From the NCBI GenBank assembly GCA_023129715.1, contig JAGMBO010000090.1, forward strand, positions 1 through 35,163: a stretch of DNA of 35,163 bases, given 5' to 3'. The notes beneath the pieces are model-generated. The model did no database searches and was not told the DNA's origin. It was given only the letters and a program-made list of their open reading frames with translations. The translations under genes and the position numbers were made by a program. Shown piece after piece: positions 16,206-35,163 of this stretch. Source of the stretch: Candidatus Eiseniibacteriota bacterium. Its GTDB lineage: Bacteria > Eisenbacteria > RBG-16-71-46 > CAIMUX01 > WJJG01. Each line of letters starts with the position of its first letter. Position 1 is the first letter of the stretch.

Positions 16206-19115
16206 CTATCTGATCACCGCGACACGAGTCACGCGACCCTGGCCGTTCGCCTTGACTCTCAGGAAATAGACTCCACTCTCCACATGAACGCCCGCTCCAT
16301 CTCGGCCATCCCAGGTGAGGGAATGTCCCCCCGCATCGAGCGGTTGCTCCAACAGACGCCGCACGAGGCGCCCGGAGATGTCATACAGGTCGACAACGAC
16401 CTCTCCGGACTCCGGCAGGTTGAAGCTGATCATTGAATGCACCCGCGCCGGATTCGGGCAAATCGAACTCAGGAGAAGCCGCTGCGCCGACGGCGGCGTT
16501 CCCGGCGCCAGGCCACTGGGACTGGCAATGGTCTCTTCCATCAGGGTCGAGCAATCGAGTACCGCGGTGGTCGTCCAGTCGGTCGCATTCCAATCCTCGG
16601 CCGGATCGTTGGCCGTATCCTGCGCGTTATCGGTCGTGGCCCCGCCCGTGCTCCAGACTTCCGTCCAGGCCGTCCGCGGGTAGGCCAGCGAGGCCTTCGA
16701 TACGCGCCATTCGATCCCGCTGCCGCGTCCGGCGCCCAACGCCGCCTCCTCGACTGTCCCCGGGCCATCCCAGCTTGTTCCGTTCCAGGAGTAGAATTCG
16801 ACCTTGGCGGGACCATAGGGATCCACGCCGTCGACCCATGTGTAGATCGCATATTCCGGCTTGTGCGGATCATTCACGACGACATTGCGCAGCCAGGCAT
16901 CGTAGGTCGCCCCCTGATCATCGCCGGTCGTGTCGATATAGAGAACGTACTTGCCCCAGTCAGTCGCCTCGATGTCCCCGTCGATCGTGAAGCAGAAATA
17001 CCAGTTATCCGCGTCGTCGAAATGATAGGAGTCCGAGAGGTCCATCACCGGGATCCCATTCCCGTCCCCGGCGGCATCGGTTGCCGCGGGAGCGCCATAG
17101 ACGATATCGGGGACCCCGTCGATGATCGGAGATGCCATGCCACACTGAACGGGACCGATTCCCAGGCCGTCGGAGCCGCCGATGGCATACAGATAATCCT
17201 CGGTCACCCAGACATCCCTGCCGCCCGGCGGATGCAGATACCCGATCGCCTCAGACGCAGTGGGGTCGGAAATGTCCACGACGTAGATTTCCCCGGCGGC
17301 GACATAAGCGTAGTCACCCATTACTTCAACCTCGTAGGCAATCCCCGGAATGTCCTGAGCGCCAACGATCTGGGGCGCGGAAGGCGTGGAGATGTCGATG
17401 ATCTGCAAGCCAAGGTCGCCATCGGCCACATAGGCGTAGTCTCCGACCACGTTCACGCCAATCGCATAGCCGGGTGTATCGATGTCTCCCACGACCAGCG
17501 GCAGGGCGGGGTCAGAGATGTCGACAACGTCGAGCCCGTTATCAGTATCGGTCATGTAAGCGTAGTCTCCTGAAACGGCAATGCCGAGAGAGCGCCCGGT
17601 ATGCACGGCGCCGACACTGTCGGGGGAGAGCGGATTGCTGATATCGACAATGCACAGCCCCTGGGTGGTCTCCCCGTATCCCCCCTTGGCCAGAAAGGCA
17701 TAGGAGCCGGAGATCGCTACGTCGTTGACCTGATTCTTCGGGAAGGTCGCGGCAATGAAAGGAGACTCGAGGTCCGAGACATCGATGACCTGCAGACCGG
17801 GAGTGCTGTCGGCAACATAGGCGTACGCGCCGTCGACTACCACATTGGACGCATATCCCGGCGTGTCCACGAACCCCTCGGATGCCGGCGCCGCCGGGTC
17901 GGATACGTCGATCACTGTGAACCCATATTGGTCGCCATTGGCCACGTATGCATATGTGCCGACGACGGTCAGGCCGGTGGGATTGATCCCTGGTATGTTG
18001 TAGTTCCCCAGAAGTTCTACCGCTTCGGCAGGAGAGACGTCGAAGATTTGCAGACCACATTCGGGAGCAGTTGTGTAGTTGATGATGTAGGCGTACTCAC
18101 CGGCAAGCGCGATTCCGTTGGCGAGATGGGCGGTTTCCGCATTCCAAACGATTCCAGGATCGGACGGGTCGGAGACATCGATGCGGAAGAAACCTTCCGT
18201 GCCGGCCGTGAGGAAGACAGTGTCCCCTGCCACGGCCACTCCATTGGCTGCCCCCGGCGTGTCCGCGTTCCCGACGATTGCCGGCGAGCCGGGAATCGAG
18301 ACGTCGATCACCTGCAGGCCGGCCGCGTCATCTGCGACATAGGCGTAGGTCCCCTCTACGGCGACGGCAACAGCGTAGTCCGGCGTATCGACCGTCCCAA
18401 CGATCGCCGCCGTCTCCGGATCGAACACATCGATCACCTGCAACCCAGAGCTGGCATCGGCCACATATGCATAGGGCCAGACCACGGCGACGCCTCGGGC
18501 CAGCCCAGGTGTATCGACAGTGCCGACGATCTCCGGGTGGTTCGGATCGGAGATGTCAATGATGTTCAGTCCGCCCGCCCAGTTCGTCGAGTAGGCATAA
18601 GGCGGCACAACCACGACATCGCTCATCGACTGGGGGAAAGAAACACTCCCCACCTCGCTGGGAGCGGTGGGATCCAAGACATCGATGACCAGGAAATCGG
18701 ATGAGGAGCCGATGAAGGCGTAGCCACCGAGCGCGAACACTCGGTTGACGGTACTTATGAAAGCAATGGATCCCACGATCTCGGGCACTCGCGGATCGGA
18801 GACGTCGACGATCTGAAGCCCGGACTCTCTGTCGGCCACGTAGGCATAGCTCCCCGCCACCGACACGTCGATGGGGCGGTCGGGCGTTTCGACACCGCCA
18901 ACCCAGTGAAGATAGTCGCTGTAGTCGATGCAGTCACCACGGGCAAGCTCAGCCGAGCCGAGTGTGGCAAGAACGGCGAGCAGGAGGATCGCCCCGACGA
19001 GCCCTGGGTGCCCGCGCCGCGCAAAGCTACCGGCCTGAGAACTCCCGGGATCGAGACGTGACGGAACACCTTCGCTGGAAATGCCAGATTGATGACGCGT
19101 GGGCGGGTCCTCCAC
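16206..19115 (-). CDS. Secreted LVIVD-repeat beta-propeller protein with DOMON-like domain and FlgD-type tail
   Basis: The 969-residue protein has a signal/anchor helix near residues 38-58 (LVGAILLLAVLATLGSAELA). It then has about 14 LVIVD repeats of ~42-45 residues (consensus YAYVADxxxGLQVIDVSDPxxP with VGxxxTPG), to about residue 655. Residues ~665-870 look like a DOMON/CBM9-type ligand-binding domain (IDGVPDIVYGAP, YFCFTIDGDI, WGKYVLYIDTTGDD). The end is a FlgD-Ig/Por-like tail (SICPNPARVHSMISF, YDISGRLVRRLL, GVYFLRVKANG). Fourteen repeats would suit two seven-bladed propellers, but that is inference. The function is probably surface protein-protein or ligand binding. The start is GTG 19115, with no Shine-Dalgarno and a rather long N-region, so it could begin later. 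Confidence 0.85.
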   Translation of the reverse strand: MEDPPTRHQSGISSEGVPSRLDPGSSQAGSFARRGHPGLVGAILLLAVLATLGSAELARGDCIDYSDYLHWVGGVETPDRPIDVSVAGSYAYVADRESGLQIVDVSDPRVPEIVGSIAFISTVNRVFALGGYAFIGSSSDFLVIDVLDPTAPSEVGSVSFPQSMSDVVVVPPYAYSTNWAGGLNIIDISDPNHPEIVGTVDTPGLARGVAVVWPYAYVADASSGLQVIDVFDPETAAIVGTVDTPDYAVAVAVEGTYAYVADDAAGLQVIDVSIPGSPAIVGNADTPGAANGVAVAGDTVFLTAGTEGFFRIDVSDPSDPGIVWNAETAHLANGIALAGEYAYIINYTTAPECGLQIFDVSPAEAVELLGNYNIPGINPTGLTVVGTYAYVANGDQYGFTVIDVSDPAAPASEGFVDTPGYASNVVVDGAYAYVADSTPGLQVIDVSDLESPFIAATFPKNQVNDVAISGSYAFLAKGGYGETTQGLCIVDISNPLSPDSVGAVHTGRSLGIAVSGDYAYMTDTDNGLDVVDISDPALPLVVGDIDTPGYAIGVNVVGDYAYVADGDLGLQIIDISTPSAPQIVGAQDIPGIAYEVEVMGDYAYVAAGEIYVVDISDPTASEAIGYLHPPGGRDVWVTEDYLYAIGGSDGLGIGPVQCGMASPIIDGVPDIVYGAPAATDAAGDGNGIPVMDLSDSYHFDDADNWYFCFTIDGDIEATDWGKYVLYIDTTGDDQGATYDAWLRNVVVNDPHKPEYAIYTWVDGVDPYGPAKVEFYSWNGTSWDGPGTVEEAALGAGRGSGIEWRVSKASLAYPRTAWTEVWSTGGATTDNAQDTANDPAEDWNATDWTTTAVLDCSTLMEETIASPSGLAPGTPPSAQRLLLSSICPNPARVHSMISFNLPESGEVVVDLYDISGRLVRRLLEQPLDAGGHSLTWDGRDGAGVHVESGVYFLRVKANGQGRVTRVAVIR

Positions 19116-22073: not shown

Positions 22074-23633
22074 TCATTCGTACAGATGCAGAGTCCCGTT
22101 GGGATAGATGGCGATGGCGCCGTCGTCGATGCGAAGACCTCTCGTAGGACGGCCGCGATTATAGATGTGCGTTTCCCCTAGGCCGCTGACATCACCGTAG
22201 AACCGAATCGACTGCCCTGGATTTCCGGTGCAGGTTATGTTGACATCCGCTCTGCATTGAAGGTACTGACCTGCCGCGAACGTTATGTCGTAACCAGTGT
22301 ACTCATAGGCGTAGAAGTAGCGATAAGGAAGCAGGATGTTGACGGGGTAGTTACCGATGCCGAACAGGCCCAGCAGGGTGGTCAGAGAAGTTGAGGGCAG
22401 GATATGGGTCACCATGAACTCATCTTCCCAGTCGCTCCAGATCAGTTCATCCAGGGTGTACCAGGTATTACTGCCGTCCTCGGGGTGGCATTGCCCGGGG
22501 AGCATGTCCTCCGGGCAATAGCCGCCCCAACCACAGTTCGCATGGTACTGCTTGATGCCTCCCTGGATCCTCCAGCCGTCGATAACGACCGAGTGTCCCA
22601 CGATCCGATACTGAATCGGCCGGAAACCATTGATCTCATCTTGAATCATCGCGAACCACGTTTCAGGCGGTATCGGGGGGTGCGGAAAGGAATAACGAAC
22701 GTCGAGGTTGGGAGTATCGTACGTGAGATCCGGATAGCCGTCCATCATGTCTGTAACATACGCACCCGAAGCACACGGTCCGGAGTCACCCCCGGAGCAG
22801 AACTCGGTTTCAATCACATCCGAGACGATGAAGCAGAGATCCCCAACGGCGAAGGTCTCTGCCGGATCCGAGTCGATGCTGAGGGAGTCCGGCATCTCCC
22901 ACCAGTGGAAAGTATGGGCGGGTGTCAGCCAATAGGGTGGCCAATTCCAGTAGTGGACAATCTGCGCCGCGGCGAGGCCCACGCAACCTACGGCGCAGTA
23001 GGGATCATCACAATCACTCTCTGGACCGGGGGACGGACAGCGCCAGTTGAAGGGTTCGCCCTGTGTCCAGTTCGCGGTCACCAGACTGGTTCCGGCAGTG
23101 TATGGCCCCGTTTTCATGTCGATGTCCGCTGCGAGCATCCTCTTGTAAGACTCCGGATCGACCGTGAGCTCATCCCATTGACGTGAGTAGTCGATGCCGA
23201 AGCTGGCCACGAAATCGGCAGTGCCGACCTTCTCCACCGGACCGAGCTTCTCTTCGATGGCATCGACGTCGTAGCCCATGCGGCGCCTGAGAATCTCTGG
23301 CAGGCCCTCGGAAGCCGCCGGATCGACACTGGAGGACGTGGAATGGGCGATCACGGGCGGCAGGCCCTTGTGAAGCCCAACCACCACATGACCCGTAGGG
23401 CTGATCTGGCAGTAGTAGCCGACCGGAAGCCCGTCACGCAGGATCGGCTTGACTGAGTGCACCTCCGCCTCGGTGAATCGCCCCCAGGAGCCTTCATTGT
23501 GCATCGTCAGGGCGACCCAGTTGGCGGCGACGTCTTGAGCCTCCGCCATGGTCGCGATCTCAGCTCCGCTGGGGCAAGCTAGGGCGAAATTCATGATCAA
23601 GATCGAGCCAAGCATAGATACAACAGCTTTCAT
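22074..23633 (-). CDS. Secreted C10 (streptopain-type) cysteine protease, copy 1
   Basis: The 519-residue protein begins with an N-terminal signal peptide, then a pro-region starting TMAEAQDVAANWVAL (~28-180) that resembles streptopain propeptides. The protease part has NWTQGEPFNWRCP and the nucleophile segment AVGCVGLAAAQIVHYWNWP (C217). The histidine follows in GHSVVIDGW (H347), then HANCGWGG (N366, W369): the C10 Cys-His-Asn/Trp layout. The last ~80 residues form a short beta domain (PTRGLRIDDGAIAIYPNG) shared with the neighbour. I chose ATG 23633, not the ATG six bases earlier, because GGGGAG is then correctly spaced. It lies 15 nt downstream of the second copy, on the same strand, so they are co-transcribed. 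Extra Cys residues suggest extracellular disulfides. Confidence 0.88.
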   Translation of the reverse strand: MKAVVSMLGSILIMNFALACPSGAEIATMAEAQDVAANWVALTMHNEGSWGRFTEAEVHSVKPILRDGLPVGYYCQISPTGHVVVGLHKGLPPVIAHSTSSSVDPAASEGLPEILRRRMGYDVDAIEEKLGPVEKVGTADFVASFGIDYSRQWDELTVDPESYKRMLAADIDMKTGPYTAGTSLVTANWTQGEPFNWRCPSPGPESDCDDPYCAVGCVGLAAAQIVHYWNWPPYWLTPAHTFHWWEMPDSLSIDSDPAETFAVGDLCFIVSDVIETEFCSGGDSGPCASGAYVTDMMDGYPDLTYDTPNLDVRYSFPHPPIPPETWFAMIQDEINGFRPIQYRIVGHSVVIDGWRIQGGIKQYHANCGWGGYCPEDMLPGQCHPEDGSNTWYTLDELIWSDWEDEFMVTHILPSTSLTTLLGLFGIGNYPVNILLPYRYFYAYEYTGYDITFAAGQYLQCRADVNITCTGNPGQSIRFYGDVSGLGETHIYNRGRPTRGLRIDDGAIAIYPNGTLHLYE

Positions 23634-23648
23634 GCCCATCTCCCCATA

Positions 23649-25178
23649 CTATGGATGCAGTTGGAACCCTCCGGGCCAGTACGAAACCATGGCCCCATCG
23701 TCGACGCGAATGCCACGAGTAGGATCGCCCTCCGTGTAGATGTGCAGGGGGTCCGCACTGCTCGAACCCCTAAAGGCGAGATCGCCGAAGACGCGGACAC
23801 GTCGGTGGAACTGAAGGTATTGGCCCGGCGCGAATTCGGCCCCCTGGCTTCCGAAATCGCCGAAGAAGAAGTAGCGGTAAGGAAAGCCCGGCGAGGGGGG
23901 TGGATAGTACCCCTCCACCGGCCAGGCCATCACGTTGATCGGGCGGAGATTGCAGAGCATGCGGTCGTCATCCGTGGTCGGATTGCAGGGAATCGCATCC
24001 ATCGAGTACCAGGTATTGGTGTTGGGATAGGGGTCCCAACAGGAATCAGCTGGGCTGCCTCCCGCCCAACCCATATTGAAGTGGACCATCCGTTGAGCGG
24101 CGATGTAATCGTATCCGTCGAGCACCATATGGTGTGAGGCAATCGAGTACTGAATCGGGGAATCGATTTCAATGTACCCCGTCACTATATCCCACCAGTC
24201 GCTGGCGTCATAATCGTCATACAGGAGGATGCGGCAGTAGTCCTCGTAGAAGAAGAAGACCTTATAGGCGAACAGCACACTCGAGAGACTAGCGCTAGAT
24301 GCACAACCGTCGACGCAGTACTCCGTGATCACCGAGACTCCGACCTCGTGGCACAACTCGGCAACCCCCTCGATTGTCTCGGCCGACGAGCCGCCAGTAA
24401 CGGTGTCCGCAATAGCTCCCCAGTCGTAAGGATCAATATAGGGAACTATCGTGCCATGCGGGGGCCACTTCCAGTAGTTCATGATCTGCCCAGTTGCAAT
24501 CGCGACACAGCCGGCCATACAGCGATCCTGATCGCATCCGCCGGATGCTGCCGGACAGTGCCGATTGTACGGATCTATTTGGGTCCAGAATGATGTGAGC
24601 AACACATCTCCAGCATTGTACCTGGTAGACTTACTCGCAGGGTGCGTTGGCTCGGCCTCCGAGGGGATCTGGAAGTGCTTCGGTTCCACTCTGAGCAGAT
24701 CCCAGCTGGGCTGATAGTCGATTTCGAGGAGGGACTCGAGATCGGCGGCGGTCACCGCCGCAAGGGATCCAAAGCGCGTCTTGATCTCATCAAGCATGCA
24801 TCCCATCTTCTTCTTGATGGGAACCGCCAGGGCCTGATCTATCCCGGGTTCGAACTCGGCGATTGCCGAATAGGCCTTCACCGGAGCCAAGCCCTCGAGG
24901 AGTGAGACGAGGACGTGACCGCGAGGCGCGATGTGACAGCAGTAGCCGATCGGGGTTCCATCCAGCATGATCGGCTCCGTACTGACAACCGAAGCCTGCT
25001 CGGCCTCGCCCCACGCTCCCTTGGTCCCGATCACGAGCGCGATCCAGTTAGTGGCGATATCCTCGGCTTCGGGCATCGTCACCATGCGGGCCTGCACGGA
25101 GCCGGCCAGAAGCGCCACGGTCAGGGCAGCGAGGATTACCGTCCTGGGGCACATCATCTTACACATCACTCTGCGCAT
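23649..25178 (-). CDS. Secreted C10 (streptopain-type) cysteine protease, copy 2
   Basis: This 509-residue paralogue of the downstream gene has the same order: signal peptide (VILAALTVALLAGSVQA), a pro-region starting TMPEAEDIATNWIALV, and the catalytic part. The catalytic part has FWTQIDPYNRHCP, the nucleophile segment AGCVAIATGQIMNYWKWPP (C224), SHHMVLDGY (H349) and HFNMGWAGG (N368, W371). It ends with the same beta tail (PTRGIRVDDGAMVSYWPGG). Sequence drift between the copies is large, so the duplication is old. ATG 25178 is chosen because AGGAGA is then about 10 nt upstream; a GTG nine bases earlier is too close to it. It lies 18 nt after the collar/repeat gene, suggesting one transcription unit across both proteases and that protein. 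Confidence 0.88.
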   Translation of the reverse strand: MRRVMCKMMCPRTVILAALTVALLAGSVQARMVTMPEAEDIATNWIALVIGTKGAWGEAEQASVVSTEPIMLDGTPIGYCCHIAPRGHVLVSLLEGLAPVKAYSAIAEFEPGIDQALAVPIKKKMGCMLDEIKTRFGSLAAVTAADLESLLEIDYQPSWDLLRVEPKHFQIPSEAEPTHPASKSTRYNAGDVLLTSFWTQIDPYNRHCPAASGGCDQDRCMAGCVAIATGQIMNYWKWPPHGTIVPYIDPYDWGAIADTVTGGSSAETIEGVAELCHEVGVSVITEYCVDGCASSASLSSVLFAYKVFFFYEDYCRILLYDDYDASDWWDIVTGYIEIDSPIQYSIASHHMVLDGYDYIAAQRMVHFNMGWAGGSPADSCWDPYPNTNTWYSMDAIPCNPTTDDDRMLCNLRPINVMAWPVEGYYPPPSPGFPYRYFFFGDFGSQGAEFAPGQYLQFHRRVRVFGDLAFRGSSSADPLHIYTEGDPTRGIRVDDGAMVSYWPGGFQLHP

Positions 25179-25196
25179 CTTGTGCACTTCTCCTGG

Positions 25197-28082: not shown

Positions 28083-28667
28083 CTAGTGCAGGACGAGCAT
28101 TTTCTTCAGTGACGTAAACGACTTAGTCTTCAGTCGATAGAAGTACACGCCCGCGGGCGCCCGCGCCCCCGAGTCGTCCATTCCAGTCCATACCGCCTGA
28201 TACGTGCCCGCCTCAGCGTCCTCGCGCACGAGTGTCCGGATCACTCTCCCCGCCACATCGTAGATCGCGATCTCGACGGACCCCTCCCTGGCCAGCGAGT
28301 ACTGGATCAGCGTAGACCTGTGGAAAGGATTGGGGCGGTTCTGGTGGAGAATCGCCCGGAAGACTTGATCGCTCGCTGGCTCCACCGCACTGGGACCGGA
28401 CCCCAGGCGCTGCCAGAACCCGGCATAGAGAGTCCGGGCACCTCCTGCGCCGATACCGACGGGCGTCGACTGTCCGAGGGTGCCTTCGCTGACGAATCCG
28501 GCACTCGATCCGGATGCGCCGGCAGCACCGATAACGGAATCGTGAAGGAGATGCGTCGGGGCGCGGGCTCGATCCTCACCCCCCTCCGCCGCGGCTTGCA
28601 GGGGGAAGAGGCTCAACGGAATCGCCGCGCAGCAGATTGCAAAGCAGGCCAATCGGAACTTGGACAT
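28083..28667 (-). CDS. Small secreted protein with FlgD-type sorting tail
   Basis: The 194-residue protein has a signal peptide (LACFAICCAAIPLSLFPLQA). A short linker-like domain follows (ASGSSAGFVSEGTLGQSTP, then TLYAGFWQRLG), a pattern seen in FCB proteins just before the sorting tail. The tail itself is textbook (QNRPNPFHRSTLIQYSL, AIYDVAGRVIRTLV, APAGVYFYRLKTKS). No catalytic domain is present, so it may be a scaffold or a truncated effector. ATG 28667 is fixed by GGGAGG 8 nt upstream. The frame continues upstream only because it runs into the remnant of another FlgD tail. It precedes the collar gene by 12 nt. Confidence 0.82.
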   Translation of the reverse strand: MSKFRLACFAICCAAIPLSLFPLQAAAEGGEDRARAPTHLLHDSVIGAAGASGSSAGFVSEGTLGQSTPVGIGAGGARTLYAGFWQRLGSGPSAVEPASDQVFRAILHQNRPNPFHRSTLIQYSLAREGSVEIAIYDVAGRVIRTLVREDAEAGTYQAVWTGMDDSGARAPAGVYFYRLKTKSFTSLKKMLVLH

Positions 28668-28679
28668 GCGGTTCACCTC

Positions 28680-28880
28680 CCCTACCAGATCGGGTGGCAC
28701 GGTGATCGTCCGTCCGCCCTCGGCCCCAGATGCGATTTCCCGGGTCCGGACACAGCGTCCCGTCGCATCGTGGATCGTCAGCTCCATGTGTGCCCCCGCG
28801 CTTCCCACTGGAAGCTCACGAGCAGTTCGACGATATCACCCGCCGCTCGAACCCCGCATGGGGTTGCGAGGAGTCACACG
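28680..28880 (-). pseudogene. Decayed remnant of a FlgD/Por-type sorting tail
   Basis: On the minus strand just upstream of the small FlgD-tail gene, RVTPRNPMRGSS is followed, after an in-frame TGA, by MELTIHDATGRCVRTREIA. Between them the shifted frame reads GDIVELLVSFQWEA, which restores the expected beta strand. The parts match a FlgD-Ig tail (NPMRG, then LTIHDATGRxVRT) if two compensating frameshifts are allowed. The final WDGRD...GVYFxR part is missing, replaced by the next gene's ribosome site. The body of the old gene is not recognisable upstream. Sequencing error cannot be excluded. Confidence 0.55.
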
Positions 28881-29226: not shown

Positions 29227-32200
29227 ATGAAACGTCTTCCGGCTCGCTCGCTCCATGATCTGGCCCGCACTTGCGCAGTCATCTTGGCGATCTCGGCCCT
29301 GTTGGTGATCTCGGCCCTGCAAGTCTCAAATGCCGAGAACGGGACCGACCCAAGGCTTGCTCTCGAAGCACAGGTGGACAGCCTACGCAACGCGGGCGCA
29401 TACACTGAGGCAGCAGGGGCGGCACGGGTCCTGTTGCGGCTCACCCGAGAGGACGAGACGTCCAAACCATACCGAATCGTCGATGCGAGATTGCGGGCGG
29501 AAGGACTGGAACAACGGGCGGGGTTTTCCGCGGAAGCGAGGCGTGCGCTGGCGCCGGCGGATAGCTTGACGGCCGTGGTGGAGGAATCCTACGCCCGCGG
29601 ACGCTACGCAGAGGCCATTGAGGCACAGCAGCGACAGCTGGCAGTGTATCGCCAGTTCCTCGGCGAGGAGCGGCCGGAAATCGCCGAGTCTCTCCTGAAC
29701 CTCGGCTTCCTCACTGCACGAGGGGGCGACCATGTAGCGGCGGAACCTCTCTATCGTGAGGCGCTGGAGATGCGCCGCAGGCTCCTGGGCGACGAACACC
29801 CGGACATCGCGCTCAACCTCAACGTCCTGGCCGATGTCTCTAGGACCCGCGGGGATTACCCCAGAGCTGATTCGCTCTACCGCGAGGCGCTCGCCATGGC
29901 TCGCCGCCTCTTGGGAGAGACGCATAGCGACCTCGCGATGATCCTCAACAACTTCGCGGCCCTTCTCGAGAAACGTGGGGAATACGCGGAGTCGGAGTCG
30001 ATGTACCGCCGGGCGCTCTCAATCTATCGAGAGGTCCTGGGCGAAGAGCATCGTTTCGTCGCCACCGTCCTTGATAATCTCGGACTGGTCTTGCTGGCCC
30101 GAGGGGACCACGCCGCTGGCGAACCGTTGATGCGCAGGGCGCTGGCGATGCGACGCAGGCATTACGGGGAGGAGCATCCCAGCGTCGCGACCAGTCTGGG
30201 CAATCTGGCCATGCTCCTCAAGGAGCGCGGAGATCTTGCCACGGCCGAGCCCCTGTACCGCGAGGCGCTGGCGATGGACCGCAAGCTCCGGGGGGAAGAG
30301 AGCGCCGCTGTCGCCACGGACCTCAACAACCTTGGGGCGCTTCTTCGGGTTCGTGGAGAGTTGGCGCAGGCGGAGAGTCTCCTCCGCGAAGCTGTGACTC
30401 TGCGCCGGAGCCTACTGGGTAACCACCCCCATGTTGCCAGCAGCCTGAACAACCTCGCTACAGTTCTCGAGGGTCTTGGGGATCATCAGGCAGCGGATTC
30501 GTTGTACCGCGAGGCGCTAACGATCAACCGCGGATTCTTCGGCGAGGAGCACCCCCGCGTTGCCCTGGGGTTGGCTAACCGGGGACGGCTGTTGGCGGAC
30601 CACGGAGACCACGAGGAGGCGGAGACGCTGCTGCTCAGTTCTCTATCTCTGGGGCGCGAGCTTCTAGGCAACCAGCACTACCAAGTCGTTCAGACGCTCC
30701 ACGACCTCGGTGCGCTGCACATGGCTCGCGGGAACCATGCGGAGGCGGAGACGCTGCTCGAGCAAGCCGCTCAGGCGTTCGAGGCGGCTCGGATCCGGGC
30801 CGGCCCCGGCCTTTCCCGGGCCACCTTCGGCGCCTCCCCCTACCCCGCCCTGGCGGCGACGCGTCTCGCTCTGGGCAAGGAAGCAGAGGCTTGGCCGGCT
30901 TGTGAACGGAGCCTCGCCAGGGTGCTCTCGGAGATGCTGCACACCGCTGGATCTCGCCCTCTGACCGCCGCGGAGACTGCCTGTGAGGATTCGCTGCGGC
31001 GTGGCATTGGGGACGCCGAGCGTCTACTCGCCGTCTATCGCCGGGAGGCGCGTTCCGACTCCACCATCGAGGCCGCCCAACGCGTGAAAGAAACTCGCGA
31101 CCGGCTGCTCGAGCTGGAGGCGGAGTGGAGCATCTTCCAACACGACCTTGCAGGCCGGTACCCAGTCACCGAGGGGCAGGCCTATCCCCTGGAGTGCATT
31201 CAGGCCACGCTCTCGAGAAACGAAGCGATCCTCGGATGGCTGGACGTGGAAGTGGAGAGAGGACGCTGGAAATCCTGGGCCTATGCGATCTGCAACCAGG
31301 GGCCTGTTCGCTGGTCTGCTCTGCCGGGCGGTGAGGGTTCTCCCGTCGAACGTGCCCAGCGCCTGCGCGAGAGCCTTTCTTCTCCCGGCGTCGGTGACCT
31401 CCAAGCGGGCGCGACAACGCTTCATGAACTATGGTCCGCGCGCATTCAGCCGGTGATCCATCACTTGGAGGATGTCGACGAGCTGATCATCCTGCCCTCG
31501 GGCGCAATGCTGGGAATCCCGGTCGAGGCGTTCACCGATAGTTCCGGAGGTTTCCTCGGCGATCGTTTCGGTGTGTCCTACGCGCCTTCCGCCACCATCT
31601 ACGCTTGGCTGGCCGAGCGCGTGGTCTCCGAGGCCCCGGCGGTAGTCGCCGCACTTCTGGCTGGAGATCCGCCTTATCGCCCGAGTCATGTCGCGCCGGC
31701 CGAGGGGCCGGGAACCGAGGCGCTCGCCGGCGAGCTCTTGGCCGCGGGGGCAGCACTCGAACCGGATCTCTATCGCCGAGCGATCACCGGTGATCAGGAT
31801 GCGCTCAACAAGTTGCCTCGCTTGGCCGGCACCCGAGCCGAGATCGAGGCGCTGGGGGCCCTGCTGCCGGGCAGCACGATTCTCCTGGGGCCCGCCGCCT
31901 CCGAGCAGTCACTGACCTCGATGGCGTCGGCGGGCGAGCTAGTGAACTTCCGCGTTCTTCACTTCGCCACGCATGCGATCGCCGACGACGAGACCCCCGC
32001 CAACTCGGCGCTCATTCTATCCCAGGTTGACCTACCGGATCCCCTGACCGCAGCGATGTCGGGAGAGCGGCTCTACGATGGGGTCGTATCCGCGAAGGAG
32101 ATCTTGCGCGAGTGGAGACTGTCGGCGGATCTGGTGACTCTGAGTGCGTGCGAGACCGGACTCGGGAAAGAGATGCCCGGCGAAGGATACGTGGGACTCG

Positions 32201-32550
32201 CTTCTGCGTTTCTCCAGGTGGGTGCCCGCAGCCTGCTGGTAGGATTGTGGGAGGTCGAGGATCTGGCCACGGCGGCACTGATGCAGCGCTTCTATGAAAA
32301 CTGGATCGGCCGCGACGGCGGTGAACCAATGGGGAAGGCCGAGGCGCTTGGTGAGGCGAAGCAGTGGCTGCGGACATTGACGTTCGACGAGGTGGAGAGG
32401 ATCCGCGAGAGCCTCGGAATCCGGGCATCCTCGACTGGGCGCGGTGTCGGCGGCCTGGTTCCGGTCGCGGGCTCCAAGCCGGCCACGGTGCGGCCCTGGG
32501 AGCATCCCTCCTTCTGGGCTCCGTTCATCCTCATTGGGGATCGCGATTGA
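29227..32550 (+). CDS. Exported TPR-CHAT protease-like protein
   Basis: The 1107-residue protein has an N-terminal signal peptide or anchor (VILAISALLVISALQVSNAE). About ten kinesin-light-chain-like TPRs of 42 residues run from ~110 to ~530 (consensus LNNLAxLLxxRGDxAxAExLYREALxxRRxLLGEEHP). A helical linker follows, then a CHAT domain (~690-1105): LIILPSGAMLGIPVEAF, the catalytic His in LHFATHAIA (H916) and the catalytic Cys in LSACETGLG (C975), then GLASAFLQVGARSLLVGLW. CHAT is a caspase/separase-like clan CD cysteine protease family and the dyad is intact, so it is probably active. A secreted or periplasmic location is suggested by the N-terminus. It sits 250 nt before an ECF sigma/kinase pair on the same strand. 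Its substrate is unknown. Confidence 0.92.
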   Translation: MKRLPARSLHDLARTCAVILAISALLVISALQVSNAENGTDPRLALEAQVDSLRNAGAYTEAAGAARVLLRLTREDETSKPYRIVDARLRAEGLEQRAGFSAEARRALAPADSLTAVVEESYARGRYAEAIEAQQRQLAVYRQFLGEERPEIAESLLNLGFLTARGGDHVAAEPLYREALEMRRRLLGDEHPDIALNLNVLADVSRTRGDYPRADSLYREALAMARRLLGETHSDLAMILNNFAALLEKRGEYAESESMYRRALSIYREVLGEEHRFVATVLDNLGLVLLARGDHAAGEPLMRRALAMRRRHYGEEHPSVATSLGNLAMLLKERGDLATAEPLYREALAMDRKLRGEESAAVATDLNNLGALLRVRGELAQAESLLREAVTLRRSLLGNHPHVASSLNNLATVLEGLGDHQAADSLYREALTINRGFFGEEHPRVALGLANRGRLLADHGDHEEAETLLLSSLSLGRELLGNQHYQVVQTLHDLGALHMARGNHAEAETLLEQAAQAFEAARIRAGPGLSRATFGASPYPALAATRLALGKEAEAWPACERSLARVLSEMLHTAGSRPLTAAETACEDSLRRGIGDAERLLAVYRREARSDSTIEAAQRVKETRDRLLELEAEWSIFQHDLAGRYPVTEGQAYPLECIQATLSRNEAILGWLDVEVERGRWKSWAYAICNQGPVRWSALPGGEGSPVERAQRLRESLSSPGVGDLQAGATTLHELWSARIQPVIHHLEDVDELIILPSGAMLGIPVEAFTDSSGGFLGDRFGVSYAPSATIYAWLAERVVSEAPAVVAALLAGDPPYRPSHVAPAEGPGTEALAGELLAAGAALEPDLYRRAITGDQDALNKLPRLAGTRAEIEALGALLPGSTILLGPAASEQSLTSMASAGELVNFRVLHFATHAIADDETPANSALILSQVDLPDPLTAAMSGERLYDGVVSAKEILREWRLSADLVTLSACETGLGKEMPGEGYVGLASAFLQVGARSLLVGLWEVEDLATAALMQRFYENWIGRDGGEPMGKAEALGEAKQWLRTLTFDEVERIRESLGIRASSTGRGVGGLVPVAGSKPATVRPWEHPSFWAPFILIGDRD

Positions 32551-32642
32551 CTCTTCGCGCGCCACTCTGCCGCCTGTACAACAAGTTGAGCTCTCTTCCC
32601 AAGAGTCTTTCCCAATCCAGAGATGAGCCGGAAGACCCCAAG

Positions 32643-32671
32643 TTGACATCTCTCCTCAGCTCTGGGATACT
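32643..32671 (+). promoter_or_regulatory. Sigma70-like promoter of the ECF sigma-kinase pair
   Basis: TTGACA (32643-32648), a perfect -35, is followed by a 17-base spacer and GATACT (32666-32671, 4/6 to the -10). The expected transcript start is near 32678, about 120 nt before the sigma-factor ATG. It suggests that the sigma/kinase pair can be transcribed by housekeeping RNA polymerase independently of the CHAT gene. Confidence 0.6.
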
Positions 32672-32800
32672 AGATGTAAGAATGTGGTGTCCGAGGGCGG
32701 GGCAGCGGTGGCCTCTGGCGTGTGCAGATGCTCTCCATTCTGCCATCGCGCCGGTGCCCCCTGATGGCCCGTGGACGAAGAGCAGGGACGGGCAACCTTT

Positions 32801-33418
32801 ATGGCGGCAGACGACGATCCGGCCCGGCAATCATCCTTGGAATCAACCGCCGACCTTCTGGTGCAAATGCGTGGGGGCGACGAGAAAGCCACCGGGCGCC
32901 TTTTCCATATCTTCGCCCCTATTCTCCGTCAATGGGCTCGCGGCCGTCTGCCGCAGTACGCCCGCGGCCTTGCCGACACCGAAGACCTTGTGCAGATTAC
33001 GCTCATCCGGGTGTTTGATCGGATAGAGGGCATCGAGCTGCACGGGCCGGGGTCCTTCCTGGCCTACTTGCGCCGAAGCCTCCTGAACAACCTGCGCAAC
33101 GAGATTCGCCGCTCGATGCGCCGGCCAGCCGGAAGCCCGGCCAAGGGGGAGCTTCCCGACGACACGGCGTCACCACTGGAGCAGGCCGTTGGCAAGCGTG
33201 CACTCGCTGCCTACGAGGAGGCGTTGGAGCGCCTGGAGGAAGAACAGCGCGCCGCCGTCATCTTGCGGATCGAGTTTGGATTCAAGCACCGGGAGATCGC
33301 GGAGATGCTCGAGAAGCCCTCGGCGAATGCCGCGCGGATGCTCGTTTCTAGATCCTTGATGCGGCTCTCGGATCTGATCGATGAAGAGGCACTCCGGGAT
33401 GGGTCAGAAGGACGATAA
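32801..33418 (+). CDS. ECF sigma factor
   Basis: The 205-residue RNA polymerase sigma factor has region 2 at about residues 15-90 (LFHIFAPILRQWAR, then ADTEDLVQITLIRVFDRI). It keeps the acidic DTEDLVQ motif that contacts the core enzyme. Region 4 is at ~140-195 (ALERLEEEQRAAVILRI, then KHREIAEMLEKPSANAARM), a helix-turn-helix for the -35. The LADTEDLVQ / RSLLNNLRNEIR style resembles ECF groups linked to Ser/Thr kinases in planctomycete-like genomes. ATG 32801 is chosen; GTG 32771 in the same frame lacks a ribosome site. The last 20 nt overlap the kinase gene, so the two are translationally coupled. No anti-sigma gene is adjacent. Confidence 0.9.
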   Translation: MAADDDPARQSSLESTADLLVQMRGGDEKATGRLFHIFAPILRQWARGRLPQYARGLADTEDLVQITLIRVFDRIEGIELHGPGSFLAYLRRSLLNNLRNEIRRSMRRPAGSPAKGELPDDTASPLEQAVGKRALAAYEEALERLEEEQRAAVILRIEFGFKHREIAEMLEKPSANAARMLVSRSLMRLSDLIDEEALRDGSEGR

Positions 33419-35163
33419 CGCTCTGAAGCATCTCGCCGAGGCGGTCACCGACGAGACCGCGATCGACTGGGATGCAGAGCGCAATGCTCATCCCGAGCAT
33501 GGGTCCCGTCTGGAGAGGTTGCGCCTGGTCGAGCGGATCGCCACCTTTCACAGGATTCCGTGGAAAACCCCGTCGGTGGATCGAGACGCCTCCTCGACAC
33601 AACCTCCCTTTCCCTGGTGCCATCTCAAGGTCACTGAGGAAATCGGCACCGGGAGCTACGGCACCGTCTATCGGGCTGAGGATCCGCGTCTGCAAAGGGC
33701 CGTCGCGCTCAAACTCCTCCATCCGGATCTCTCCTCGCAGACACTGGCGCCCCAGCGATTCCTGGAGGAGGCGCGTCGCATGGCTCGCGTCCGCCACCCG
33801 AATGTCCTGGTCATCCATGGCGCCGGCGAGGACCGAGGCCGTGTAGGGTTCTGGATGGAGCTCATCGACGGCAGCACACTGGAGCAGCGTCTCGAGAAAG
33901 AGGGCTCCTTCGGAGTCGGCGAGGCAAGTCTGATCGGCATCGAGGTTTGCCGTGCCCTGGCGGCGGTCCATGGGGCCGGCATCGTGCACGGGGATGTCAA
34001 GGCTTCCAACGTCATGCGCGACGCGGGAGGAAGGATCCTCCTCGCCGACTTCGGCGCGGGGAGTGAAGTGACCAAGGCTGTGGACGCCCCGTCGAATCTC
34101 GTTGGAACCCCGTTGTTCCTCGCCCCCGAGTTGCTGGAGGGCGCCGCCCCGAGTCCTCAAGCGGACATCTACGCTTTGGGGGTCCTCCTTCATCGACTCG
34201 TATCGGGAACGTTCCCGCTGAGCGGCGGCACCATCGACGAGCTTAGGGAACAACACCGCCGGGGAGAACGGCAGCGGCTCTCCGACCTCAGACCTGACCT
34301 GCCCGCTGCATGGGTGGCGATCATCGAGCGCTGCCTCGCCGGCGATCCGGCGGCTCGATTCAAGACCGTTGGGGAACTCGAAGACGCCCTGGGCCTCTCG
34401 ATTCGTGAGGTTGCGGATGCGACGTCAACGTCACCGAGAGCGCCGGGCGGACCGGCGCGAGGATCGCGCACCTGGATGTTCGCGCTGGTCGCCATGCTCG
34501 CGGTCGGCGCCAGTCTCATCTGGTTCGAGACTCACCGGCGAGCCCGTGACGCAGGTCGCACCGCGGCGCCCGGCGAACATCGGCTTGCGGATGCAGGGGT
34601 CGGCATGCGGAGCACGGAGGACCACAACGTCAGCTTTGAGATCGACGCGCGCCTCTACCGGGCGGTGGGCGGAACCAAGGAACTCCTGCCCTACGGGTCG
34701 AGCGTCGGTCCCGGCGACGCGCTCTTCATGGAATTGGAGGGATCGGAAGATCTCTATGTCTATGTCCTCAACGAAGATCTCGAGGGTAATGTCTTTCTCC
34801 TCTTCCCGCTCGCCGATCTGGACGTCGAGAATCCACTGCCCAGCGGATCGACCCACCGCCTCCCCGGAACGTGCGCCGGCGTGGGTCAGGACTGGCAGGT
34901 CACCAGCCGCTCTGGTCATGAGTCCTTCCTGATCGTCGCCTCCCGAGAGCGCCTGGATGAACTGGAGGGAGCGATCGCCTCGCTGACACCGGCCGTCGCC
35001 GGCCGTCCTCTTTCCCGCGGCGCGGAGGAGACGCAGACAGCCGCCCTCTATCGCGGTGTCGGGGGCTTGGTCTCAGCGTCGCCGGATATGGCTGAGGAGG
35101 GAACGTCGCGGCTCTCGGGGGTGGAGCAAGGACTCCTTCGCAATGCCGAAGACCCGCGCGATC
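33399..35163 (+). CDS. Membrane Ser/Thr protein kinase with DUF4384-like outer domain (partial, 3' end outside window)
   Basis: The frame is open to the window edge, with about 588 residues visible. The kinase domain (~76-335) is complete: glycine loop GTGSYG (83-88), ATP lysine K105 in VALKLL, catalytic loop HGDVKASN (D199, HGD in place of HRD), DFG (217-219) and APE (E244). A membrane helix (WMFALVAMLAVGASLIWF, from residue 359) separates it from an outer part. Residues ~410-510 fit DUF4384 (LYVYVLNEDLEGNVFLLFP, ENPLPSGSTHRLPG, FLIVASRERL). The kinase is cytoplasmic and the DUF4384 part periplasmic, so it could signal across the membrane. The start overlaps the ECF sigma stop by 20 nt, and GAGG lies nearby. 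Confidence 0.9.
   Translation, partial: MGQKDDNALKHLAEAVTDETAIDWDAERNAHPEHGSRLERLRLVERIATFHRIPWKTPSVDRDASSTQPPFPWCHLKVTEEIGTGSYGTVYRAEDPRLQRAVALKLLHPDLSSQTLAPQRFLEEARRMARVRHPNVLVIHGAGEDRGRVGFWMELIDGSTLEQRLEKEGSFGVGEASLIGIEVCRALAAVHGAGIVHGDVKASNVMRDAGGRILLADFGAGSEVTKAVDAPSNLVGTPLFLAPELLEGAAPSPQADIYALGVLLHRLVSGTFPLSGGTIDELREQHRRGERQRLSDLRPDLPAAWVAIIERCLAGDPAARFKTVGELEDALGLSIREVADATSTSPRAPGGPARGSRTWMFALVAMLAVGASLIWFETHRRARDAGRTAAPGEHRLADAGVGMRSTEDHNVSFEIDARLYRAVGGTKELLPYGSSVGPGDALFMELEGSEDLYVYVLNEDLEGNVFLLFPLADLDVENPLPSGSTHRLPGTCAGVGQDWQVTSRSGHESFLIVASRERLDELEGAIASLTPAVAGRPLSRGAEETQTAALYRGVGGLVSASPDMAEEGTSRLSGVEQGLLRNAEDPRD

Follow-up and report, generated by a model that had tools for sequence, protein, structure and literature searches.

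The stretch of DNA analysed here (the window) is the entire contig C177, 35163 bp long, from a 4.83-Mb genome that is 95.9% complete. Three plus-strand genes at its right end encode a TPR-CHAT protease, an ECF sigma factor and a Ser/Thr kinase (Table 1). A sequence-only reading of this DNA had proposed an exported TPR-CHAT protein with an intact His/Cys dyad, followed by the sigma gene and by a kinase with a membrane helix and an outer DUF4384-like domain; all of these features were recovered at the same places, with every Pfam match above cut-off. The CHAT protein belongs to PF12770 (199.7 bits against a cut-off of 24) and has both dyad residues, H916 in the motif LHFATH and C975 in the motif LSACE, and its export is predicted from an N-terminal helix resembling a signal peptide. 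The VALK, HGD and DFG motifs are all present in the kinase, and its one transmembrane helix (aa 364-382) precedes DUF4384. The CHAT and sigma genes are separated by 220 bp. The 20-nt overlap of the sigma and kinase genes holds if the kinase starts from the ATG at 33399, preceded by AGAGG; the alternative ATG at 33381 gives a longer frame and a 38-nt overlap, and of the two the start at 33399 is the one best backed by a ribosome-binding site. The kinase gene is cut by the contig end, and according to alignment A2 a short stretch of C-terminal residues is missing.

Table 1. Features of the protease, sigma factor and kinase locus at the right end of the window
Feature	Position	Strand	Evidence and remarks
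TPR-CHAT protease gene, predicted exported, 1107 aa	29227..32550	+	Pfam CHAT (E=9.3e-59), TPR_12/TPR_10; signal-peptide-like helix aa 15-33
CHAT protease domain	31417..32541	+	Pfam domain limits; His916 codon 31972-31974, Cys975 codon 32149-32151
ECF sigma gene, 215 aa, GTG start	32771..33418	+	Pfam Sigma70_ECF, Sigma70_r2, r4_2
Thr70 codon, sigma region 2.2	32978-32980	+	Family alignment A1
Membrane Ser/Thr kinase gene with outer DUF4384 domain, open at contig end	33399..35163	+	Pfam Pkinase (3.4e-43), DUF4384 (4.6e-11)
Kinase domain	33627..34364	+	VALK, HGDVKASNV and DFG motifs
Single transmembrane helix between kinase and DUF4384	34470..34526	+	Hydropathy
DUF4384 core, extracytoplasmic side inferred	34710..34949	+	Pfam; AlphaFold model mostly beta

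The DUF4384 match in the window kinase is the only one in this genome. Its AlphaFold2 model consists mostly of beta strands (mean pLDDT 80); a fold search with this model gave no PDB match at E <= 0.001, and a sequence search of the PDB with the domain gave none either. The transmembrane helix is also seen in the hydropathy profiles of the DUF4384 kinases of relatives. In published surveys DUF4384 was found fused to orthocaspases, which are caspase-like (PMC8283722, PMC6426788), and was reported on proteins with kinase domains (PMC6426788); the orthocaspase fusions thus provide an independent link between DUF4384 and caspase-like proteases.

Homologues of the sigma factor were sought in 59 relative genomes, where the surroundings of about 65 of them were taken and CHAT and DUF4384 were located genome-wide. 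The relatives of the same class are Candidatus Eisenbacteria, rather than generic FCB or planctomycete-like genomes, and the survey was then extended to named genomes. In the 59 genomes, DUF4384 is encoded directly downstream of 25 of the 67 family sigmas, and 14 of these 25 loci have a same-strand CHAT gene no more than 7 kb away, compared to 0 of the 42 others (p=5e-8). Among all 79 loci with enough flanking DNA to be scored, CHAT is nearby in 30/38 loci with a DUF4384 kinase, leaving eight without it, and in 0/41 with other kinases. Nearly all members of the family have a kinase partner. Thus, as far as the surveyed loci go, the possibility that CHAT genes occur near sigma-kinase pairs no more often than chance, which the sequence-only reading named as one that would speak against it, does not hold for pairs of the DUF4384 type. 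These counts come from many related loci: only five phylogenetic pairs are independent, of which about 4.1 agree and 0 oppose (p about 0.125), and therefore significance is out of reach at this level.

The three-part arrangement, which would be new if conserved according to the sequence-only reading, is indeed conserved in several phyla and is tied to the DUF4384 kinase type. It is present in Eisenbacteria, Acidobacteriota (L131, L135, L138, L143, L156, L167, L172) and Gammaproteobacteria (Woeseia L144; Tahibacter L189, L191 and L193; L196, L198). The commonest order in relatives is sigma, kinase with DUF4384, CHAT, often with overlapping genes (for example, in L047 and L103), and in many cases CHAT closes the operon. 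L103 repeats the order observed in the window, with CHAT first, and shows a 4-nt overlap; further upstream CHAT genes occur in L131, L134 and L190. Several unrelated CHAT lineages joined the pairs of sigma factor and DUF4384 kinase. Inheritance of the trio as one vertical unit was rejected, as loci with both DUF4384 and CHAT lie dispersed over the sigma tree, and their CHATs belong to several clades.

The absence of an adjacent anti-sigma gene, noted earlier for the window, was confirmed for the ZAS type. No same-strand ORF combining the HxxxCxxC (ZAS) motif with a membrane helix was found within 3 kb of the sigma gene in 129 family loci, a test that other kinds of anti-sigma factors would escape. 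Likewise, the canonical pattern of an ECF sigma with a ZAS anti-sigma was not found on the readable side of the window, whose contig ends at 35163; an anti-sigma gene beyond this end was considered and set aside, none of the ZAS type being seen in the relatives.

The link between CHAT and ECF sigma factors is wider than the trio. The genome contains eight CHAT genes, five of which (C183, C125, C127, C159, C131) follow an ECF-like sigma gene and a gene for a small anti-sigma-type protein with the zinc-binding motif HxxxCxxC or a related one; two others, in C123 and C112, have no such neighbours. With the reservation that the assembly is not complete, a second CHAT gene just past the contig end was also rejected, since the positions of all eight are known and none runs off the end of its contig. 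In a shuffled sample of CHAT genes from relatives, 32 have 1 kb or more of DNA in front of them, and in 8 of these an ECF sigma gene is directly upstream, compared to about 0.5% by a rough estimate. As ECF sigma and ZAS-type anti-sigma genes precede the majority of the CHATs in this genome, the kinase is one of two interchangeable regulators. In three relatives (L115, L117 and L118) the sigma gene is accompanied by a protein with ZAS, transmembrane and DUF4384 parts (with a zf-HC2 match over cut-off in L118) and by a convergent CHAT gene. The DUF4384 part of the ZAS proteins aligns with its counterpart in the kinases (hhalign 96%, E=2e-9), and thus DUF4384 adjoins CHAT whether the inner half of the protein is a kinase or an anti-sigma factor.

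The predicted location of the protease goes with the topology of the regulator. In the ECF-regulator-CHAT operons found in this way, the regulator has a membrane helix in 6/6 cases where CHAT bears a signal peptide or lipobox, and is soluble in 9/9 cases where CHAT is cytosolic, a match that direct contact between the two would predict; the p-value of 0.0002 overstates independence, the cytosolic CHATs probably being partly one related group. Exported CHATs occur with membrane regulators in C183, C125 and C127 of the same genome, and the CHATs of the kinase trios mostly have N-termini resembling signal peptides. This pattern fits a meeting of protease and regulator in the same compartment.

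The protease, kinase and sigma factor are probably one system carrying a signal from the cell surface to genes. We lean, by a modest preference, towards an envelope-signalling module in which the exported TPR-CHAT and the outer DUF4384 domain cooperate beyond the membrane and the kinase relays the signal to the ECF sigma. Once activated by way of its ligand-binding TPR part, CHAT would cleave DUF4384 or dock on it, acting on this domain or being sensed by it outside the membrane. This contact would switch the cytoplasmic kinase, which would then phosphorylate the sigma factor, perhaps at the invariant Thr of D-T-x-D, so that no anti-sigma would be needed. Finally, the sigma factor would transcribe its regulon, plausibly including its own operon, a step that the motif search described below did not support. 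We infer the direction of the signal, the cleavage and the phosphorylation; the nearest demonstrated precedent is Craspase, where a TPR-CHAT protease cleaves an inhibitor of an ECF sigma (PMC10028731). The upstream rather than downstream position of CHAT in the window, its distance from the sigma gene, its place outside the main trio clade and the eight DUF4384-kinase loci without a nearby CHAT count against this module. A broader version, so far rather doubtful, would make exported CHATs general input devices of ECF sigmas. The protease would cut its partner, be it a ZAS anti-sigma or a DUF4384 kinase, in the outer domain, which would give an undescribed protease-kinase-sigma relay across the membrane, and Craspase would be a cousin with the same logic, captured by CRISPR.

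The main rival places CHAT at the output. The DUF4384 kinase would itself sense an envelope signal and activate the sigma factor, and the exported CHAT would be an effector of the regulon, degrading envelope or foreign proteins or killing the cell. The frequent last position of CHAT in the operon, where effectors are often found, the variety of the CHAT lineages linked to the pairs and the eight DUF4384 kinases without a nearby CHAT are consistent with this. It accounts for membership in the operon, but leaves unexplained both why CHAT occurs beside DUF4384 and never beside other kinases and why its compartment matches the topology of the regulator, and we regard it as unlikely.

Region 2.2 of the sigma factor bears on the last steps of the favoured module. 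In the window it reads D-T-E-D-L-V-Q; nearly all relatives have D/E-T-x-D, with Thr as the second residue of the motif in 126/126 readable family members, whereas the same position of the solved ECF sigma SigH is Ala, in DAED. Thr70 is a candidate phosphosite, and a purely structural role, for example as a helix cap, is possible as well. Kinases activate ECF43 sigmas (PMC13147305), which lack the acidic DxxD and have the phosphorylated Thr as the third residue, in QTTA or STTA (PMC13147305, PMC8999054). The window sigma keeps DxxD and, by this motif, falls outside ECF43; the nearest NCBIfam model, TIGR02984, gives 72.6 bits with a cut-off of 183.75. In agreement with the earlier suggestion that the kept DTEDLVQ may mean a different mechanism, activation of the ECF43 type is unlikely, and, to judge from this motif, the present kinase-ECF system must work differently.

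Since the acidic motif is kept, the sigma factor may even be active without phosphorylation. The kinase would then act on CHAT or other proteins, and the sigma would be controlled only by its amount in an autoregulated operon. ECF-kinase groups outside ECF43 are likewise said to keep acidic motifs and may work differently (PMC8999054). Other ECF groups linked to kinases are 59, 61, 62, 217 and 283. Both the nearly constant pairing of the family with kinases and the invariance of the Thr argue against such control, which seems to us improbable. As for the regulon, a search for two-block motifs in front of 46 sigma genes gave 106 against 65-71 in shuffles, but five near-identical Lysobacterales loci (GGTTATC-N15/16-TTCATT) accounted for this excess, and the upstream region of the window sigma scored poorly. 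No promoter motif common to the loci was found.

The CHAT of the window has a history of its own. The catalytic His and Cys columns are retained in all linked CHATs that cover these positions. One main clade of 27 rows (support 100/99) unites most of the trio CHATs, drawn from three phyla, and also takes in a few for which no partner was seen. The window CHAT is outside it and groups with L107, the paralogue C125 of its own genome and one CHAT from G007; the C125 and G007 relatives belong to ECF-ZAS operons. L107 is its best full-length match among those compared (43% over 1110 aa), comes from a genome of the same order and is also upstream of a pair of sigma factor and DUF4384 kinase, at about 2 kb with two opposite-strand ORFs between. 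From its clade and the L107 context, the pairing in the window looks like a swap of partners rather than descent of the main trio, and its own link is therefore less certain than the general one. That the window CHAT stands beside an ordinary sigma-kinase pair by chance alone, as its clade, the eight CHAT genes of the genome and the 220 bp gap might suggest, is hardly probable given the similar position of L107, the same order with tight overlaps in L103, the upstream CHATs of L131, L134 and L190, and the general attraction of CHATs to DUF4384 kinases.

The roles of bacterial CHAT proteases outside Craspase are largely obscure, and the conserved tie to ECF sigmas offers a concrete, testable one, to which the matching membrane topology and the interchangeable regulators add. 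In addition, the trio points to a likely partner for DUF4384, and its presence in cultured Tahibacter strains makes it amenable to testing. In the open-access literature searched, we found neither a paper on CHAT with a kinase-ECF pair nor a description of ECF-ZAS-CHAT operons.

ECF-kinase systems and one CHAT-sigma system are already known. As in the ECF43 systems EcfP/PknT of Vibrio parahaemolyticus and EcfK/PknS of Xanthomonas citri, the sigma factor described here is encoded beside a transmembrane Hanks-type kinase, its family has no ZAS-type anti-sigma gene, and a Thr lies in or adjoining the region 2.2 motif. Unlike in ECF43, DxxD is kept (DTED) and the Thr is its second residue, not the third; the ECF43 accounts consulted name neither a DUF4384 nor a CHAT partner (PMC13147305, PMC8999054). 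With the Type III-E Craspase/CASP system (Csx29, Csx30, CASP-sigma) the locus shares the genetic linkage of a TPR-CHAT protease to an ECF sigma. However, Csx29 is activated by RNA through Cas7-11, whereas the window CHAT has an export signal and its regulator is a membrane kinase; moreover, the Csx29 model NF041237 gives only 23.4 bits on the window CHAT against a cut-off of 300. The ECF-ZAS-CHAT operons of the same genome (C183, C125, C127, C159, C131) contain the same types of partners, with a zf-HC2-type anti-sigma in the place where the window uses a kinase. Finally, orthocaspases with DUF4384 similarly join this domain to a caspase-like protease (PMC8283722), in one polypeptide there and in separate genes, together with a sigma factor, in the window.

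Association of DUF4384 with CHAT extends beyond the kinase: in three relatives (loci L115, L117 and L118), the sigma gene is accompanied by a zinc-finger (ZAS) anti-sigma factor that itself carries a membrane helix and DUF4384, and the CHAT gene is convergent. This domain swap gives DUF4384 a link with CHAT that does not depend on the kinase. Consecutive genes for an ECF sigma factor, a ZAS-type regulator and CHAT also occur five times in the window's own genome; at one of these loci (L232, 374-6237), a single cytosolic CHAT gene lies between two ECF-ZAS cassettes on opposite strands. The outer portion of the anti-sigma factor looks TPR-like in L228 and in another locus, L238.

Features of the window and of its own genome
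Feature	Location	Contig
Two C10-family (streptopain-like) cysteine peptidase genes, in tandem	window 22077-25187, - strand	
Protein with C-terminal FlgD_ig domain, one of two	window 16209-19115, - strand	
Protein with C-terminal FlgD_ig domain, one of two	window 28086-28808, - strand	
Consecutive genes: ECF sigma, ZAS-type regulator, CHAT	L227	C183
Same	L228	C125
Same	L230	C127
Same	L232	C159
Same	L233	C131

One FlgD_ig protein of the window has LVIVD repeats and one a Por_Secre_tail match; their C-termini point to a sorting-type secretion route. Locus L074 (8759-12510; identical with L174) encodes a radical-SAM protein and an S8 subtilase in the interval that separates CHAT from the sigma-kinase pair; this set may represent a modified peptide together with its proteases.

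The sequence GGTTATC-N15/16-TTCATT, found approximately 100 bp upstream of the sigma domain in three Tahibacter trios (L189, L191 and, as AGTTATC, L193) and two further gammaproteobacterial ones (L196, L198), is a candidate autoregulated promoter in these Lysobacterales trios.
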